In this document: positions 7,740 to 45,731 of the stretch, in pieces
Layout: every line of letters begins with the position of its first letter
Numbering within the stretch: position 1 is the stretch's first letter
IMG/VR virus record: IMGVR_UViG_3300045120_000268
Location: 1-55,736 of that record
Reading direction: 5' to 3' (one strand)
DNA: 55,736 bases
Source: a virus
Notes under the pieces: generated by a model
Told to the model about the DNA's origin: nothing
Seen by the model: only the letters and a program-made list of their open reading frames with translations
Database searches by the model: none
Position numbers and translations under genes: made by a program

Positions 7740-8411
7740 TCACGCTGCGTCACCTCGCCGGAATCGGGCACGCAGAGTGGCGACCACGCTGCGTGACGGC
7801 GGCGCGGGCGGTGGTGGTCGCTGACCGTAACCGGCGTACCGGACCATCAGCGTGTGCAGATGCACCGCCGGGTAGTCCAGCCGTTCCGCCGCCGTCTCCA
7901 GCGTCACCCCCGACCACACCATCTCAGCGCCGTCCTCCGCGAGCTTCACCACACACTCATGGCATCGGCGGCCGCCCTTGCCCACGAAGCCGCCGCAGCG
8001 GGCATGGTTGAGGCACGGCTGCGGCGGCTTCGGTTCCCGGGGCGGACGGTTCCGGGCACGGTCCTCCACCCGGTTCTGCAGCGGCGTCCCATACACCAGG
8101 TTCCCGGCGCCCGAACGGCAGCCGTCCTCACCGCCCGGGGCCCACCGGTTGTCCAGCGGGTCGTCGTTCCAGTGCCGGGCTTCCATCCCCTCCGGGCACG
8201 GCCCCTCGAAGGTGAGCAGGACGACGCTGTGGACGGTGCGCGTCTCCCGCTTCCCCTCATCGGAGACCATCTTCACCAGCGGGTAGCCGGTGCCGCTGTG
8301 GCTGCGGGTCGTGGCCATGATCTCGCCACCGGGGCGGCGCCGGATCCGGCCGGCGTCGCTGGCCAGGTACCGGCCGAACCCCGGGATAGGCTTCCACGTC
8401 TCATCCATCAT
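7740..8411 (-). CDS. HNH endonuclease with NUMOD4-type N-terminus
   Basis: 223 residues; ATG 8411 overlaps the translocase stop and has GGGAGGAA upstream (ATG 8408 also possible). Residues 5-25 (WKPIPGFGRYLASDAGRIRR) are a NUMOD4 motif of homing-type nucleases. Next comes an HNH core: VHSVVLLTFEGP, RHWNDDPLDNRW, NLVYGTPLQNRVED, with H and N residues in the usual places. A Cys/His cluster (CLNHARCGGFVGKGGRRCHEC) and a C-terminal helix-turn-helix-like segment (LETAAERLDYPAVHLHTLMV) complete it. It may be a free-standing homing nuclease riding in the module, or a nicking enzyme serving it. Confidence 0.85.
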   Translation of the reverse strand: MMDETWKPIPGFGRYLASDAGRIRRRPGGEIMATTRSHSGTGYPLVKMVSDEGKRETRTVHSVVLLTFEGPCPEGMEARHWNDDPLDNRWAPGGEDGCRSGAGNLVYGTPLQNRVEDRARNRPPREPKPPQPCLNHARCGGFVGKGGRRCHECVVKLAEDGAEMVWSGVTLETAAERLDYPAVHLHTLMVRYAGYGQRPPPPAPPSRSVVATLRARFRRGDAA

Positions 8412-21875: not shown

Positions 21876-22577
21876 GTGCCTTGGGTCCGGTTCGATGACC
21901 AGTACCCGCTCCACTACAAGGTGGCCGGGCTGAGCGACAAGACGTACCGCCTCGCCACCGAGGCGATCTTCTGGTGCGCCCGCAATCTCACTGATGGACA
22001 CATTTCTGCGCAAAACCTGCACCAGATCCGTCCCGCACTACGCTCCCCAGCAAGTCACGCGGCGGTACTGGTTTCGCAGCGCCTCTGGCACCCAGCGGGC
22101 GAAGGCTGCGACGCGGAGAAGTGCCCCGCGCCGGTCGCCGGTGACGGCTGGGTCATCCATGACTACTGGCAATACCAGCCAACCAAGACCCAGGTCGTCA
22201 AGGAACGCGAGGCCGCAGCGAGACGGCAGGCGAAGTTCAGAGCCGCCCATAACGCTGTTAGTAACGCCGTTACTACACCCGTGACTGATGGCGTTACACC
22301 CCCCGTGACTAACGCTTCCCCGACCCGTCCTTATATAGGTACAGGTCCGTTCCAAGGTGACCCCCCCGCGCGCGCGCGCGCGAGACCCACCCCAAATCCC
22401 AGCGGGCAAGTCAACCCCGGCGAGGGTGCCGCAGCACGCCACCCATCCGCCAGACCACTCGCTGCCGCACTTGAAGACGCAGGCGTCAACGGCAAGCCAG
22501 CGAGCGACGAGACCGTCAACGCAATCGTCGCCAGCATCCGCCACGCCATCACCCCGCCGCCCAAGGACCCGCCATGA
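21876..22577 (+). CDS. Replication initiator-like protein with internal iterons
   Basis: 233 residues from GTG 21876. GAGGAGA lies 13 bases upstream and is better spaced for GTG 21872, which opens only an 8-codon frame. The N-terminus PWVRFDDQYPLHYKVAGLSD followed by LATEAIFWCARNLTDG is the winged-helix start of phage/plasmid replication proteins (replisome-organiser type). WVIHDYWQYQPTKTQVVKER leads into a basic linker. The linker contains five tandem 4-residue repeats (V-S/T-x-x, residues about 128-148) encoded by the 12-bp iteron array, then ARARAR and a short C-terminal helical domain. As in lambda O, the origin may lie inside this gene. Confidence 0.75.
   Translation: MPWVRFDDQYPLHYKVAGLSDKTYRLATEAIFWCARNLTDGHISAQNLHQIRPALRSPASHAAVLVSQRLWHPAGEGCDAEKCPAPVAGDGWVIHDYWQYQPTKTQVVKEREAAARRQAKFRAAHNAVSNAVTTPVTDGVTPPVTNASPTRPYIGTGPFQGDPPARARARPTPNPSGQVNPGEGAAARHPSARPLAAALEDAGVNGKPASDETVNAIVASIRHAITPPPKDPP
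22257..22316. repeat. Five 12-bp iterons, candidate replication origin
   Basis: Units begin at exact 12-base intervals: GTTAGTAACGCC (22257), GTTACTACACCC (22269), GTGACTGATGGC (22281), GTTACACCCCCC (22293), GTGACTAACGCT (22305); a weaker sixth may start at 22245. The core is GT(T/G)A. Odd palindrome AGTAACG-C-CGTTACT at 22260-22274. AT-rich TTATATAG follows at 22331, then eight CG dinucleotides at 22367-22382. Confidence 0.65.
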
Positions 22578-22699
22578 CTGACGACGCGCGGTGCCCAATC
22601 TGCGTCTACCAGGCCAGCCCCAGCGGCTGGCGGCTCCGCCTCATCCACCCCCGATGCCCCCAACACGGCGGCCACCCCCACTGGAAAGTGACCACATGA
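22574..22699 (+). CDS. Small Cys/His protein (paralogue of 24438 gene)
   Basis: 41 residues from ATG 22574 (ATGA overlap). C-P-I-C-V-Y, then [17 protein letters not shown]. The CxxC...RCPQH...HWKVTT pattern is shared with the gene at 24438-24557, including nearly identical DNA at the 3' end. Likely a tiny zinc-binding protein. Not found by length-filtered gene calling. Confidence 0.6.
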
Positions 22700-23202
22700 C
22701 CCTCCGCACCGGCATCCCCTGCGCCGCCGCCTACCTGGCGACCATCGTCGGCGCGAACTGGGCCGTCCACCGCTTCGGCGTCGTCCCTGTCGGCTTCGGC
22801 TACCTCGCCCCCGCCGGCGTGTACTTCGTCTCTGCCGCGCTGGTGCTCCGGGACGCCGTCCAGTACACCCTCGGCAAGATCATCACCCTCGCTGTCATGG
22901 CCGCTGGCGTCGCGCTCTCAGCGCTCGTCGCCGGACCGCAGCTCGCCCTAGCATCCGGCGCAGCGTTCGCCGTCTCCGAAACCCTCGACTTCGCCCTGTT
23001 CACCTGGATAGCGCCCCGCTGGGCCCTCGCCGTCGCCGTGGGCGGCTTCGTGGGCCTCGTCGCCGACTCGATCGTGTTCCTGACGCTGGCGTTCGGGTCC
23101 CTGGAGTTCCTGCCTGGGCAGATCCTCGGCAAGTCCTACGGCGTGATCGTGGCGTCGCTGGTGATCGCATGGCGCAGACGCAGGAGGGTGGCGACCGCGT
23201 GA
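22696..23202 (+). CDS. VUT/YhhQ-family transporter (queuosine precursor type)
   Basis: 168 residues from ATG 22696 (ATGA overlap). Five to six hydrophobic helices: [39 protein letters not shown] with the polar D in mid-membrane, then [13 protein letters not shown] and [18 protein letters not shown]. The motifs [18 protein letters not shown] and VADSIVF are characteristic of the VUT family (YhhQ), whose studied members import 7-cyano- or 7-aminomethyl-7-deazaguanine. Two genes downstream lies a DpdA-like DNA transglycosylase, so the likely job is to supply preQ0/preQ1 for phage DNA modification. Substrate is inferred. Confidence 0.8.
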
Positions 23203-23438
23203 CTGACTTGATCACATTCCTGCTCGCCCGGCTAGACGAGGACGAGGACGCGGCACATATGGCAGAAGCCGTACGCGCCATCCTGACTGAATACGCGCCA
23301 GTCGCCCGCAACGATGACGGCTCCCATGAGCCTGAGTACGCCTATGGATGGGCCGATGCCCTGGGGATGGCTGTGCGCGCCCTCGCCGCCTCCTACCGGG
23401 ACCACCCGGACTACGACCCGGCGTGGGACCCAGCGTGA
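23199..23438 (+). CDS. DUF6221 family protein, short form
   Basis: 79 residues from GTG 23199 (GTGA overlap). [20 protein letters not shown] and the terminal [13 protein letters not shown] are DUF6221 hallmarks. Shorter than the copy at 1585-1917 because the middle VLREVEAKR segment is missing. It lies between the transporter and dpdA-like genes. Function unknown. Confidence 0.75.
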
Positions 23439-24226
23439 TGAAGTTCTACCTCGGCACCCACGAAACCAGCTGGCTCGCCCGGGTGGACTTCCCGCTGTTC
23501 GTCTCCCACATGCGCCTCCGCCAGCGCAAGACGCTGCCCCGCGCCCGCCACCCGTGGGCGCTCGACTCCGGCGGGTTCACCCAGCTCGCCCAGCACGGCA
23601 GCTGGACATTCACCCCCCGCCAGTACGTGACCGCGGTCCGCCGCTACGCAGACGAGATCGGCAGCCTGGAGTTCGCCGCACCGATGGACTGGATGTGTGA
23701 GCCGTTCATGACCGCCCGCACCGGCCTACCCGTCCACGAACATCAGCGCCGCACCACCGCGAACTACCTGGAACTGCGCCACATCGCCGGCGACCTGCCG
23801 TGGATCCCCGTCCTCCAAGGCTGGGAACCCGGCGACTACCTCCGCCACGCCCACGGCTACCTCCGCCACGGCATCGACCTCGCTGGCCTCCCACGTGTCG
23901 GCATCGGCTCCGTGTGCCGACGGCAGGACACCGCGCTAGGAGACTGGATCATCCGCTCCCTGGCACCCATCCGGCTCCACGGCTTCGGCATCAAAACCGG
24001 TGGCCTGCTCCGCTCCGGCCACCGGCTCACCTCCGCCGACTCGATGGCCTGGTCCTACAACGCCCGAAGGCACCCACCGCTAGACGGCTGCACCCACGGC
24101 AGCTGCGCCAACTGCCCACTGTGGGCAGCCCGCTGGCGCAGGAAAGTCCTGGCCAAATTCGCCGCCACCGAGGCAGCGGGACGGCAAGGCGACCTGTTCG
24201 ACCCCGACGAGGCGTGGGCGTCATGA
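23438..24226 (+). CDS. dpdA: DpdA-like DNA-guanine transglycosylase (7-deazaguanine insertion)
   Basis: 262 residues from ATG 23438 (TGATG junction). Matches the short phage DpdA type: ALDSGGFTQL (residues 41-50, the TGT-family DSGGF motif), AAPMDWMCEP with Asp84, PVLQGWEPGDYLRHAHGYLR, VGIGSVCRRQDT, HGFGIKTGGL, SADSMAWSYNARR and a CTHGSCANC cluster near 222-231 that may bind zinc. DpdA exchanges guanine in DNA for preQ0/preQ1, protecting phage DNA from restriction. No preQ0 synthesis genes (folE, queC, queD, queE) are visible, so the precursor must come from the host or the adjacent transporter. Confidence 0.85.
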   Translation: MKFYLGTHETSWLARVDFPLFVSHMRLRQRKTLPRARHPWALDSGGFTQLAQHGSWTFTPRQYVTAVRRYADEIGSLEFAAPMDWMCEPFMTARTGLPVHEHQRRTTANYLELRHIAGDLPWIPVLQGWEPGDYLRHAHGYLRHGIDLAGLPRVGIGSVCRRQDTALGDWIIRSLAPIRLHGFGIKTGGLLRSGHRLTSADSMAWSYNARRHPPLDGCTHGSCANCPLWAARWRRKVLAKFAATEAAGRQGDLFDPDEAWAS

Positions 24227-31445: not shown

Positions 31446-31766
31446 GTGGCTGACAGTGACGCCCTGCGGCAGCGGCGCCGGAAGGCGCACATGCAGGGTG
31501 ATCATGCGCTGTGCCGCCGCTGTTCTGCGGTGAAGGGGGCGCCCATGTCCCCGGTTCCCGATCTTCCGGTGGGTGCGGGTGAGGTGACGGATGCGCCGTC
31601 GGAGCTGCGGCAGCTGGCGTGGCGGATGGCTGAGGCGCACCGGGCTGACCCGGCGAACGCGATCCTGGCGCGGGAGTTGCGGCTGACGCTGCAGGCGCTG
31701 ATCCCTGCGGGCAAGGTGGAGCTGGATGCCGATCTCACGGGACTCTTCGGCTCCTTGCAAGCCTAG
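31446..31766 (+). CDS. terS: Terminase small subunit
   Basis: 106 residues from GTG 31446 with AGGAGG (31437-31442) upstream. N-terminal Cys/His segment (RKAHMQGDHALCRRCSAV), then helical ELRQLAWRMAEAHRADPANA and ILARELRLTLQALIP, typical of short small-terminase subunits that precede HK97-like large terminases. Overlaps the ATPase gene by 41 bases. Codons in this and the next genes end mostly in G or T rather than C, unlike the early operon. Confidence 0.75.
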   Translation: MADSDALRQRRRKAHMQGDHALCRRCSAVKGAPMSPVPDLPVGAGEVTDAPSELRQLAWRMAEAHRADPANAILARELRLTLQALIPAGKVELDADLTGLFGSLQA

Positions 31767-32643
31767 GTTCGCGACGCCTGCGACGGGCAGGCCGCATCTC
31801 GCGGAGGGCATCGGGCAGACGGCGGCGCTGCTGGGGTTTGACCTGATGCCGTGGCAGCACGGCACGAACTCGGTCGCGACGGAACTGGGCCCGGATGGCC
31901 GGTTTGTGTACCGGCAGGTGGTGCTGGAGGTGATGCGGCAGCAGGGGAAGACGGTGGACCTGCTGGCGATGATGCTGGCGCGGGGGCTGCGCCGGCCGGG
32001 GACGCAGATCGCTTATACGGCGCAGACGCGGCTGGATGCGCGGCACCGGCTGCTGGATGTGTGGTGGCCGCTCATTGAGCGGAGCAAGCTGCGGCGGTTC
32101 ATTGAGCCGCGTAAGGGGTCGGGGTCTGAGGCGTACCTGTTCTCGAACGGGTCGATGCTGAGCCTGGTGTCGGGGACGCAGACGTCTGGCCACGGTGACA
32201 GCCTCGATCTGGGTGTGATCGACGAGGCGTGGGCGCAGCGTGATGACCACATTGAGCAGGCGATGCGCCCGGCGATGATGACCCGTGACGCGCAGTTGTG
32301 GATTGTGTCGGCGGCGGGTGATGAGACGTCGGAGTATTTCCGGGGGAAGGTGGAGGACGGCCGGGCGCGTGCTGAGATGGGCGTGACGGAGAACGGCTGT
32401 TACATCGGCTATTCGGCGGCTGATGATGCGGATCCTGCGGATCCGGCGGTGTGGCGGGGGTGTATGCCTGCGCTGGGTGCCACGGTGAGTGAGGAGACCG
32501 TGATGGCCGACTTCGAGCTGATGGACCTGGCGGAGTTCCGCCGCGCCTACCTGTGCCAGTGGCCGGAGGTCGCGAAGCCGGGCTGGGACGTGATCGGGCA
32601 GGATGAGTGGGCTTCGGCTGCTAATCCCCAGGCGCGGCTGTGA
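31726..32643 (+). CDS. terL: Terminase large subunit, ATPase half
   Basis: 305 residues. Motor motifs: adenine-binding MPWQ, Walker A-like MRQQGKT with Lys75, Walker B LDLGVIDEAW with Asp166-Glu167, coupling motif IVSAAGDETSEYF. The C-terminal FRRAYLCQWPEV is the linker normally leading to the nuclease domain. The frame stops at 32641-32643 exactly at the domain boundary; the nuclease continues in the -1 frame from an overlapping GTG. Full-length homologues have both domains in one chain of about 480 residues. Confidence 0.9.
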   Translation: MPISRDSSAPCKPRFATPATGRPHLAEGIGQTAALLGFDLMPWQHGTNSVATELGPDGRFVYRQVVLEVMRQQGKTVDLLAMMLARGLRRPGTQIAYTAQTRLDARHRLLDVWWPLIERSKLRRFIEPRKGSGSEAYLFSNGSMLSLVSGTQTSGHGDSLDLGVIDEAWAQRDDHIEQAMRPAMMTRDAQLWIVSAAGDETSEYFRGKVEDGRARAEMGVTENGCYIGYSAADDADPADPAVWRGCMPALGATVSEETVMADFELMDLAEFRRAYLCQWPEVAKPGWDVIGQDEWASAANPQARL

Positions 32644-33167
32644 ACGGCGAGGTTGCGTTCAGTGTGGAGATCAGCGATGACTGCACCTGCCATCCGGGGA
32701 AGGCGCGGCGGCATTGCGCGATCGTTGCTGCTGGGCGGGGTGCTTCGGGCCGGATCGTGGCGGACCTGGTGTGGTATGAGCATCCGCGCGGGGCGGTTGC
32801 CCGGATGACTGAGTTGAGCGAGAAGCATGATCCGCTGGCTGTGGTGATTACTGAGAAGTCGCAGTCGGCGACGTTGCTGAAGCCTCTCGCTGACGCGGGG
32901 GTGTGGGTGACGCCGGTGATGCAGCCGGATACCGCTGTTGCCCACGGCGAGTTCCTGGACCTGGTGGCCGAGGGCGGGCTGGAGCATCTTGACCAGCCGC
33001 CGCTTACGGCTGCGGTGCGGGCGGCGCAGCAGAAGCCGCTGTCTGGTGCGCAGACGTGGGAACGGAAAGTCGCTGTTGATCAGGCGCCGTTGCGGGCGGC
33101 GACGCTGGCGGTGTGGGCGTTCCGTGGCTGGGAGCTGAACTCGCAGCCGGGTACCTGGGCGGTCTGA
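32640..33167 (+). CDS. terL: Terminase large subunit, nuclease half
   Basis: 175 residues from GTG 32640 (GTGA overlap). EVAFSVEISDDC is the first RNase H-like strand, then ELSEKHDPLAVVITEKSQSA, VVTPVMQPDT-like and HGEFLDLVAEGGLEHLDQPP, ending with a helix of the terminase nuclease. No residues seem missing relative to an intact terminase, so either the enzyme works as two chains or a one-base deletion in the assembly splits it. The acidic residue of the first strand is Glu rather than the usual Asp. Confidence 0.8.
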   Translation: MNGEVAFSVEISDDCTCHPGKARRHCAIVAAGRGASGRIVADLVWYEHPRGAVARMTELSEKHDPLAVVITEKSQSATLLKPLADAGVWVTPVMQPDTAVAHGEFLDLVAEGGLEHLDQPPLTAAVRAAQQKPLSGAQTWERKVAVDQAPLRAATLAVWAFRGWELNSQPGTWAV

Positions 33168-33168
33168 G

Positions 33169-33261
33169 GTGGATCAGTCGCCGTTGATGGCGGCGACGTG
33201 GGCGTGCTGGGGGTTCCGCCGGTGGGAGGAACTCGCCCAGCCCGGCGCCTGGGTCATGTAG
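33169..33261 (+). pseudogene. Duplicated 3' end of terminase nuclease
   Basis: GTG 33169 opens 30 codons (VDQSPLMAATWACWGFRRWE and so on) that match the last 30 residues of the preceding gene (33075-33167, VDQAPLRAATLAVWAFRGWE) at 18 of 30 positions. Both blocks are exactly 93 bases and lie 94 apart. This is a diverged tandem duplication of the terminase end; whether it is translated is unknown. Confidence 0.7.
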
Positions 33262-43784: not shown

Positions 43785-45731
43785 TTGCCCGCCCCCACCC
43801 TGATTCAGTACGGCCAGACCGCCTGGACGGGCACCGGGGCGAAGAACGTCACCGGCCTGGCCTGGAACGCTGGGGACCTGATCGTCGTCATCGGCGGCGA
43901 CGAGACCGGCACCACCGTCGTCGCCGCCCCGACCAACGCGAACCTGGGCTTCGCCGCTGGCACGGCGGTCGGGGCCGACGGCACCCACTGTTACGGCAAC
44001 ACGTGGACCGCGACCGCCGCATCCACCCAGTCGGCGCAGACGATCGCGGGGACCGGCGCGGGCGCCCTGGTGTGGGGAATGGCCGTCTGGGTATTCCGCG
44101 GCCACGGCGGCATCGGCACCCGCGCGACCGATGTCACGACCGCGCTCACGGTCAGCCTCGCCCGCGCCGGCGCGAACTCGCTGGTCGTGTTCGGCGGGTT
44201 CGACTTCGGCGCCAGCGCGACCGCCGGTTACAGTTTCACGCCCACCGTCGCCAACGACCGTGAGCACACCCAGCACAGCCCCAACTACACCACGTTCGTA
44301 GCTGACTTCGGCGACCAGGGCACCGCCGGGACCACCTCCTACGGCGTGGCGGGTGTCACCCTCGGCGCGACCACAAAGATCGCGCTGGAGGTCAAGGGGC
44401 TGCCCGGCGGCGCTGTTGTAGCACGGGCCGCACCGGGTCAGACGTGGCTGCGCCGGTTCCACCACCGGCAGACCCCAGCGCAGCCCGTATTCGCGGCGCA
44501 GACGATCATCGCCACCGCGAACCTCGCCGGCGCCGGCACGGTGACCGCTGGGACCCTCGCGTTCCCGGCGATCCCGGGGAAGGCGCGGCCCGGCCAGTTC
44601 ACCCCGGGGAACCCGGGCAGCAGCGCCATGGTGCTCCCACCGGCGCCCCCGGTGCCCACCCCGGCGATGGTGGCGCGGCCGGGGCAGACGTGGCTGCGCC
44701 GGTTCCACCACCGGCAGCAGGCCGCCCCCCCTGCGGCTGCGGGCGCGGTCACTATCATCGCCACCGCGTCCCTCGCCGGCGCCGGTGCCGTCGCCACGGT
44801 TGTCACGCAGGACGCGGGCACCGCCACATCACTGGCCGGTGCCGGTGCTGTCGCAGCGGCCGTCACTGAGATTGCCCCGGCCGCTGCTGCTGGTGCGGGC
44901 GCTGTCACGGCGCAGGTCACCCAGCTCGCCCCAGCCACCCTGGCCGCTGCCGGGACGGTCGCGCCGCCCCCGGTCACGCAGGCTGTCATCGCCACCGCCG
45001 CCGGTGGCGGGGCGGTCACCGATGTTGTCACGCAGACGGCCACCGCATCGCTGGCCGGTGCGGGTGCAGCCGCTGCGGTTGTCACTGAGATCGCCCCAGC
45101 CACCCTCGCCGGTGCTGGCGCTGTCGCCCCAGTCCCGGTCACCGAGGCTGTCACCGCGTCCCCCGCGGCCGCTGCCGCCGTCACCGACGTCGTCACCCAG
45201 ATCGTCATCGCGTCCCCTGCGGGCGCGGGTGCGGTCAACGCGAACGCCGCAGGCAGCGGAAGCACCGCCGCACTAGCGGGCGCCGGGTCGGTCACAGCGG
45301 CAGCGACGCAAGCTGTCACCGCTGCTCCCGCCGGTGCCGGGAGCCTGTCCGCCGCAGCCACCGAGGCGGCGAAAGCCACCCTCGCGGGCGCCGCTACGGT
45401 CAGCGCCTCCGGGCAGATCACCGGCACCGCGAACCTGGCCGCCGCGGGCAGCCTCGCCGCGCTGGCGACGCAGCAGGCGGGGTCCACTCTCGCGGCGGCT
45501 GGGGCCGCATCCGCCAGCGCGGGGCTGCGGTCCACCGCGGCCCTGGCCGCCGCGGGCACCGTCACCGCCGTCAGCGGCACCCAGACGGCGTTCACCGTCG
45601 GCGCCCTCAGCGCCTCTGACAAGCCCACAGCCGTCCTGGTGGCCTCCGGTGCCACCAGCGCCCTCACAGCCGCCACAGCGCCGTCTGGGGCGCTCACAGC
45701 CACCGACAAGCGGACAGGAGGCCCACAGTGA
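43785..45731 (+). CDS. Fibre-like protein with about 16 Ala/Gly/Val/Thr repeats
   Basis: 648 residues from TTG 43785 (GGGGGGG upstream). Residues 1-205 form a beta-sandwich of the same style as the one in the tail-tip protein (QTAWTGTGAKNVTGLAWNAG, VWVFRGHGGIGT). Then PGQTWLRRFHHRQ appears twice (about 213 and 296), and from about residue 240 a tandem repeat of 17-20 residues with consensus ATxLAGAGxVxxxVTQxx runs about 16 units almost to the C-terminus. There are no Cys and few charges or aromatics in the repeats. Probably an extended stalk. Coding confirmed by the GTGA overlap at its end. Confidence 0.75.
   Translation: MPAPTLIQYGQTAWTGTGAKNVTGLAWNAGDLIVVIGGDETGTTVVAAPTNANLGFAAGTAVGADGTHCYGNTWTATAASTQSAQTIAGTGAGALVWGMAVWVFRGHGGIGTRATDVTTALTVSLARAGANSLVVFGGFDFGASATAGYSFTPTVANDREHTQHSPNYTTFVADFGDQGTAGTTSYGVAGVTLGATTKIALEVKGLPGGAVVARAAPGQTWLRRFHHRQTPAQPVFAAQTIIATANLAGAGTVTAGTLAFPAIPGKARPGQFTPGNPGSSAMVLPPAPPVPTPAMVARPGQTWLRRFHHRQQAAPPAAAGAVTIIATASLAGAGAVATVVTQDAGTATSLAGAGAVAAAVTEIAPAAAAGAGAVTAQVTQLAPATLAAAGTVAPPPVTQAVIATAAGGGAVTDVVTQTATASLAGAGAAAAVVTEIAPATLAGAGAVAPVPVTEAVTASPAAAAAVTDVVTQIVIASPAGAGAVNANAAGSGSTAALAGAGSVTAAATQAVTAAPAGAGSLSAAATEAAKATLAGAATVSASGQITGTANLAAAGSLAALATQQAGSTLAAAGAASASAGLRSTAALAAAGTVTAVSGTQTAFTVGALSASDKPTAVLVASGATSALTAATAPSGALTATDKRTGGPQ

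Follow-up and report, generated by a model that had tools for sequence, protein, structure and literature searches.

A candidate replication origin inside a phage initiator gene, with repeats conserved as DNA among related initiators

Repeats within an initiator gene

The viral record IMGVR_UViG_3300045120_000268, analyzed over its full 55,736 nucleotides (hereafter the window), carries a replication initiator gene in the middle of which a 12-bp repeat is translated into consecutive tetrapeptides. Such a repeat raises the question of whether it matters as peptide or as DNA and, if as DNA, which protein reads it and what for. We found that the repeated sites in this initiator gene are conserved as DNA letters and not as peptide. 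Judging from sequence, the approximately 140 bp at 22245-22382 are most likely the theta-type origin of the phage, situated inside its own initiator gene and with an array presumably bound by the product of that gene.

A sequence-only reading of the window had already proposed iterons of the lambda O kind at this position, with GT(T/G)A cores at 22257, 22269, 22281, 22293, and 22305, a weaker sixth unit at 22245, and an odd palindrome, AGTAACGCCGTTACT, at 22260-22274. The core coordinates and the palindrome are exact, the reading frame gives the five expected tetrapeptides (VSNA-VTTP-VTDG-VTPP-VTNA), and the 12-base period holds. The phase of the unit had to be changed, as an 11-bp palindrome, TAACGSCGTTA, plus 1 base fits better when counted from 22250. 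In this register, the array (22250-22321, no strand assigned), delimited by its match to the family motif and by unit scores, consists of six phased units starting at 22250, 22262, 22274, 22286, 22298, and 22310, which match the motif at 10, 11, 7, 9, 6, and 6 of 11 positions, respectively. The odd palindrome turns out to be the best copy of the unit. The weaker sixth unit proposed at 22245 contains the good copy at 22250 (10/11).

As a plain direct repeat, the array is weak. Tandem Repeats Finder reported only 1.9 copies (score of 39), and the identity at lag 12 was 32, against 31.5 ± 2.4 in synonymous recodings of the same peptide. Since this is no better than the recodings, the direct repeat alone proves nothing, and we rejected it as evidence. 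The consensus score of the six units against TAACGSCGTTA was 49/66, compared with 39.9 ± 1.7 in the recodings, and none of 100,000 recodings reached it; the consensus was defined with the window in view, and the relatives alone yield the same motif. Dyad symmetry also exceeded that of the recodings (P = 0.006), and codons ending in A or T made up 13 of the 24 in the array versus 13% in the genes of the window (P = 2e−6). Sites with at most one mismatch to the motif occur only twice in the whole window, both times in the array.

Conservation of the repeats as DNA among related loci

For comparison, we gathered about 60 related loci, including 7 close IMG/VR homologues, 18 from an alignment search (partly overlapping those 7), 14 in actinobacterial genomes, and 13 in cultured phages. 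The 14 genomic loci were obtained with an alignment query, a single-protein query having matched nothing in the genome scan. Homologous initiators have arrays at the corresponding position, and by sequence these fall into at least six classes. The 12-bp unit, which the sequence-only reading had thought distinctive for an actinophage, is instead typical of the initiator family. Class A, with the motif of the window, is represented by Mycobacterium and Rhodococcus phages and IMG/VR contigs as well as by Amycolatopsis and Streptomyces genomes. In class B, the unit is AGACGCGTCT, repeated at 12-bp steps and translated as D-A-S-x; other classes have units of GTCACRCGTGAC, of GCGAATCG, of the GATCGG type, and of the AAGCAA type. 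Assignment to classes other than A and B was made by eye first, with motif counts as a check. In five loci (L031, L047, L050, L052, and L053), an insertion within the winged-helix domain contains extra class A repeats that precede the main array.

The simplest account of the repeat would be a flexible V-T-x-x linker with no role as DNA. The linker is indeed predicted by AlphaFold2 to be disordered, and the lag-12 identity is no greater than the peptide forces. Against this, both big classes have fixed synonymous bases. In the 13 other class A loci, valine was encoded by GTT in 26 of 29 cases within the motif versus 13 of 206 elsewhere (P = 1e−21), and in class B the rare codon is TCT (18/19 within the motif, 10/146 elsewhere). 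This is the opposite of the randomized synonymous bases that, according to the sequence-only reading, would have refuted its proposal. In addition, one repeat copy of L041 lies in a different codon frame, and several short initiators (class G; L016, L018, L020, and L030) stop before the array, leaving non-coding repeats at steps of approximately 11 to 12 bp. In L061, class A repeats start right after the stop codon, and a recent frameshift may explain their non-coding state, because N-x-V-S is still open in another frame. The tetrapeptide is dispensable, given these non-coding arrays and the different peptides specified by the repeats of other classes. A role as linker only is thus already contradicted and scarcely credible.

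The initiator and its basic helix

The gene (21876-22577, plus strand) has a GTG start and encodes 233 amino acids. It was identified by its match to PHROG 2447, "replication initiation protein" (E value of 1.1e−21, residues 1 to 174), and by annotated homologues (replication initiation protein or RepA-like replication initiator), reached by tblastn with E values down to 3e−7. These distant homologues share approximately 25 to 36% identity over the N-terminal domain and belong to phages infecting Microbacterium, Gordonia, Mycobacterium, Propionibacterium, Arthrobacter, and Rhodococcus; no close DNA relatives were found among cultured phages. The protein matched no Pfam family at an E value of 0.1, including RepA_N (PF06970), no plasmid homologue at 0.01, and no PDB sequence. 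Upstream lie an exonuclease VIII-like gene and a phrog_3657 gene.

AlphaFold2 predicted a confident winged helix, a long basic helix, and then a poorly ordered tail. The winged-helix domain (residues 1 to 100, 21876-22175, plus strand; pLDDT mostly above 90) has residues invariant across homologues. A PDB fold search gave weak matches only (MarR, RepA_N-type initiators, and the DnaD N-terminal domain), among them 4pql, 4pt7, and DnaD 2v79 (E values of 0.37 to 0.68). We take 4pql and 4pt7 to be RepA-type initiators. This assumption is based in part on PMC7145576. These weak matches gave no family assignment. Fold matches among viral models were phage replisome organizers and DUF1376 proteins.

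The basic helix (residues 104 to 131, 22185-22268, plus strand) is the proposed reader of the iterons, and the 3' end of its coding sequence overlaps the first repeat copies. Among the relatives, the 24 to 30 residues following the winged helix track the repeat class when domain identity is controlled (partial r of 0.54 to 0.56, with no permutation as high), whereas domain identity does not track it when helix identity is controlled. Accordingly, nearest-neighbor prediction of the class succeeded in 87% of cases with the helix and 54% with the domain; L040, L016, and L011, which clearly met no class motif, were left out of these class statistics. Five pairs of loci (L049/L051, L043/L051, L022/L023, L023/L039, and L024/L026) have domains that are 81 to 86% identical and yet differ in both helix and repeats. 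A single helix position separates class A from class B perfectly: all 15 class B members have K there, and class A has N, T, A, or S (in L048 the position was read by eye as N in the helix RKSNAARQ). Linkage could produce the same pattern as recognition, because helix and array are adjacent and the permutations disregard phylogeny.

These results suggest, tentatively, that actinophage initiators may contain an exchangeable specificity cassette, consisting of the helix and the iterons it reads and swapped as one piece of DNA between near-identical initiators. The cassette would follow a residue code, in which K three residues before the invariant R of RQ, together with R-W after it, would correspond to AGACGCGTCT, and N, T, A, or S at the position of K to TAACGSCGTTA. 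The C-rich tract described below, often followed by a hairpin in relatives, would be a further DNA-level origin element of GC-rich phages. We regard this proposal as plausible and hold it with some reserve.

A scan for the motifs alone

The repeats might also be sites for another protein of the host or phage, involved in partition, packaging, or nucleoid organization, that lie in the initiator gene by chance. We scanned 2.9 million viral contigs for the two tandem motifs without reference to any protein and obtained 20 loci, 11 with tandem class A sites and 9 with tandem class B sites. Eighteen of the 20 were in or just after a gene matching the winged-helix profile. The scan was blind but not wholly independent, because the protein searches had already turned up some of the contigs. 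In the 15 records searched whole, there were one to three exact motif copies each. The two remaining matches could point to a different binder. L054, a 32.6-kb viral fragment in which no initiator homologue was detected, has three perfect class A repeats at 7972-8008, apparently non-coding, which could be a second or trans-acting origin or reflect an incomplete record. L056 has two tandem class A repeats at 7746-7768, at the contig end and inside the end of an unrelated-looking, membrane-protein-like open reading frame. Both records are fragments, however, and the repeat class follows the adjacent helix rather than the rest of the domain. We therefore consider a chance location of sites for another protein very unlikely.

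Flanking elements and origin hallmarks

The array is followed by a C-rich tract, CCCCGACCCGTCC (22318-22330, plus strand), absent from the list of features in the sequence-only reading. It is a short form of a family element that 36 of 45 loci have downstream of the array, non-coding cases included, with 0.11 occurrences expected per 300 nt. Then comes TTATATAG (22331-22338), located as previously described, within an AT-richer stretch that is the candidate melting site (22327-22346, no strand assigned); its 20 bp, at 40% GC, are among the lowest 0.5% of the window. The (CG)8 run (22367-22382, no strand assigned), also at the position given before, is the only one in the window, with none expected in shuffles. 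It had been regarded as distinctive for an actinophage; among relatives, CG runs are mildly enriched after the C-rich tract, and the run of the window is the extreme form of this weakly recurring feature. The relatives have two further elements, namely a hairpin after the C-rich tract (z < −2 in 14 of 35 versus 2 of 60 controls) and DnaA boxes in the 3' part of the gene (12 versus 1.2 expected).

Could the array be an operator, bound by the initiator or by a phage repressor to regulate the gene and its operon, with replication starting elsewhere? Iterons commonly serve as both origin and operator sites. In Mycobacterium phage Huphlepuff (L012), a cultured class A relative with gene 77 as its initiator gene, related sites at 1417-1451, outside annotated genes, precede the initiator start by 84 and 60 nt, a usual position for an operator; these may be operator or extra origin sites. 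The main array is nevertheless approximately 370 bp inside the gene, away from the position of a promoter, and an operator has no need of the C-rich tract or of the DnaA boxes and hairpins of relatives. A purely regulatory array thus seems unlikely.

Several observations weigh against an origin at this place. Three of the six units match the motif poorly, and the A/T run beside the array is only approximately 8 bp. In the window, we found no hairpin after the C-rich tract, no DnaA box, and no helicase or loader gene identified near the initiator. The GC-skew check suggested by the sequence-only reading showed no turn at 22.3 kb, with a cumulative minimum at approximately 31 kb, just before the terminase gene at 31726. 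Finally, L054 and L056 have copies away from any initiator gene. The comparison with relatives nevertheless strongly supports iterons of an origin within the initiator gene in a lambda O-like layout, with an AT-rich stretch that is short.

Protein binding, melting, helicase loading, and initiation at the array are what we infer from these sequences. Probably bound to each palindrome as a dimer, the initiator would read the iterons through its basic helix next to the array, pack along the array, and open the AT-richer stretch beside it. It would recruit the replicative helicase, either the host DnaB or a phage helicase. The disordered linker would exist mainly because the gene houses the origin. 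With site and reader within approximately 150 bp, both could be exchanged as a unit, and this would account for initiators that are nearly identical except in their repeat class.

Relation to known intragenic origins

In lambda and in Stx lambdoid phages, the origin lies in gene O, with inverted-repeat iterons mid-gene next to an AT-rich tract (PMC7466680). Those iterons are approximately 19 bp long and flanked by a clear AT-rich region, in contrast to the 12 bp and approximately 8 bp in the window, which also differs by its C-rich tract. The PHROG matches of the protein belong to families other than lambda O, and there is no lambda O family match, since there is no Pfam match at all. The oriL of SPP1 is a mapped origin inside the initiator gene 38 (PMC6316719). 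It resembles our locus in its intragenic layout, and the viral fold matches of our model include phage replisome organizers; SPP1 differs in having a second origin, oriR; no second array was seen in the window. In the rep gene of pSK41, four Rep boxes lie mid-gene and are bound by the N-terminal winged helix, and the origin-encoded linker is dispensable (PMC5703833). The central repeats, the N-terminal winged helix, and the linker encoded by the repeats are shared with the window, with weak fold similarity. The repeat letters, GC content, and C-terminal part are unlike those of pSK41, and the window protein lacks both a RepA_N match and, at an E value of 0.01, a plasmid homologue. The nearest actinophage study dealt with extrachromosomal mycobacterial prophages, whose RepA-like proteins are also actinophage initiators; its authors found no repeats and suspected that the origin lies within repA or upstream of it (PMC7157519). 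That RepA family has actinobacterial plasmid relatives, whereas the initiator of the window has no plasmid match.

Overall, the evidence supports an iteron origin within the initiator gene, which is a known kind (lambda O, SPP1 oriL, and pSK41) but here in a different protein family. No published description of such an origin in this initiator family was found in open-licence papers, and an earlier one elsewhere is possible. A literature search for KQNEA-type repeats in replication proteins of other phages as the same phenomenon gave nothing. To our knowledge, few actinobacterial phage origins have been mapped. If our interpretation is correct, the domain, helix, palindromic array, and C-rich tract of the initiator gene would reveal where the origin lies in many sequenced phages and prophages, and the correspondence between helix residues and repeat letters would provide testable recognition rules. 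Such loci could also serve as compact, self-contained replicons for actinobacteria. More generally, what looks like a repetitive low-complexity linker in a phage replication protein may in fact be translated origin DNA.

Other features of the window

Next to the initiator gene, 22591-23202 encodes a Vut_1 transporter-like protein and 23348-24226 encodes DpdA (Pfam E value of 7e−87). Together, they suggest that the phage produces a 7-deazaguanine-type base in its DNA or inserts one there. Two longer tandem repeats were found elsewhere in the window, both of 1.9 copies. One, with a 94-bp period (33078-33253), overlaps the end of the open reading frame at 32640-33167, and the other, with a 165-bp period (44926-45232), lies within the open reading frame at 43785-45731.
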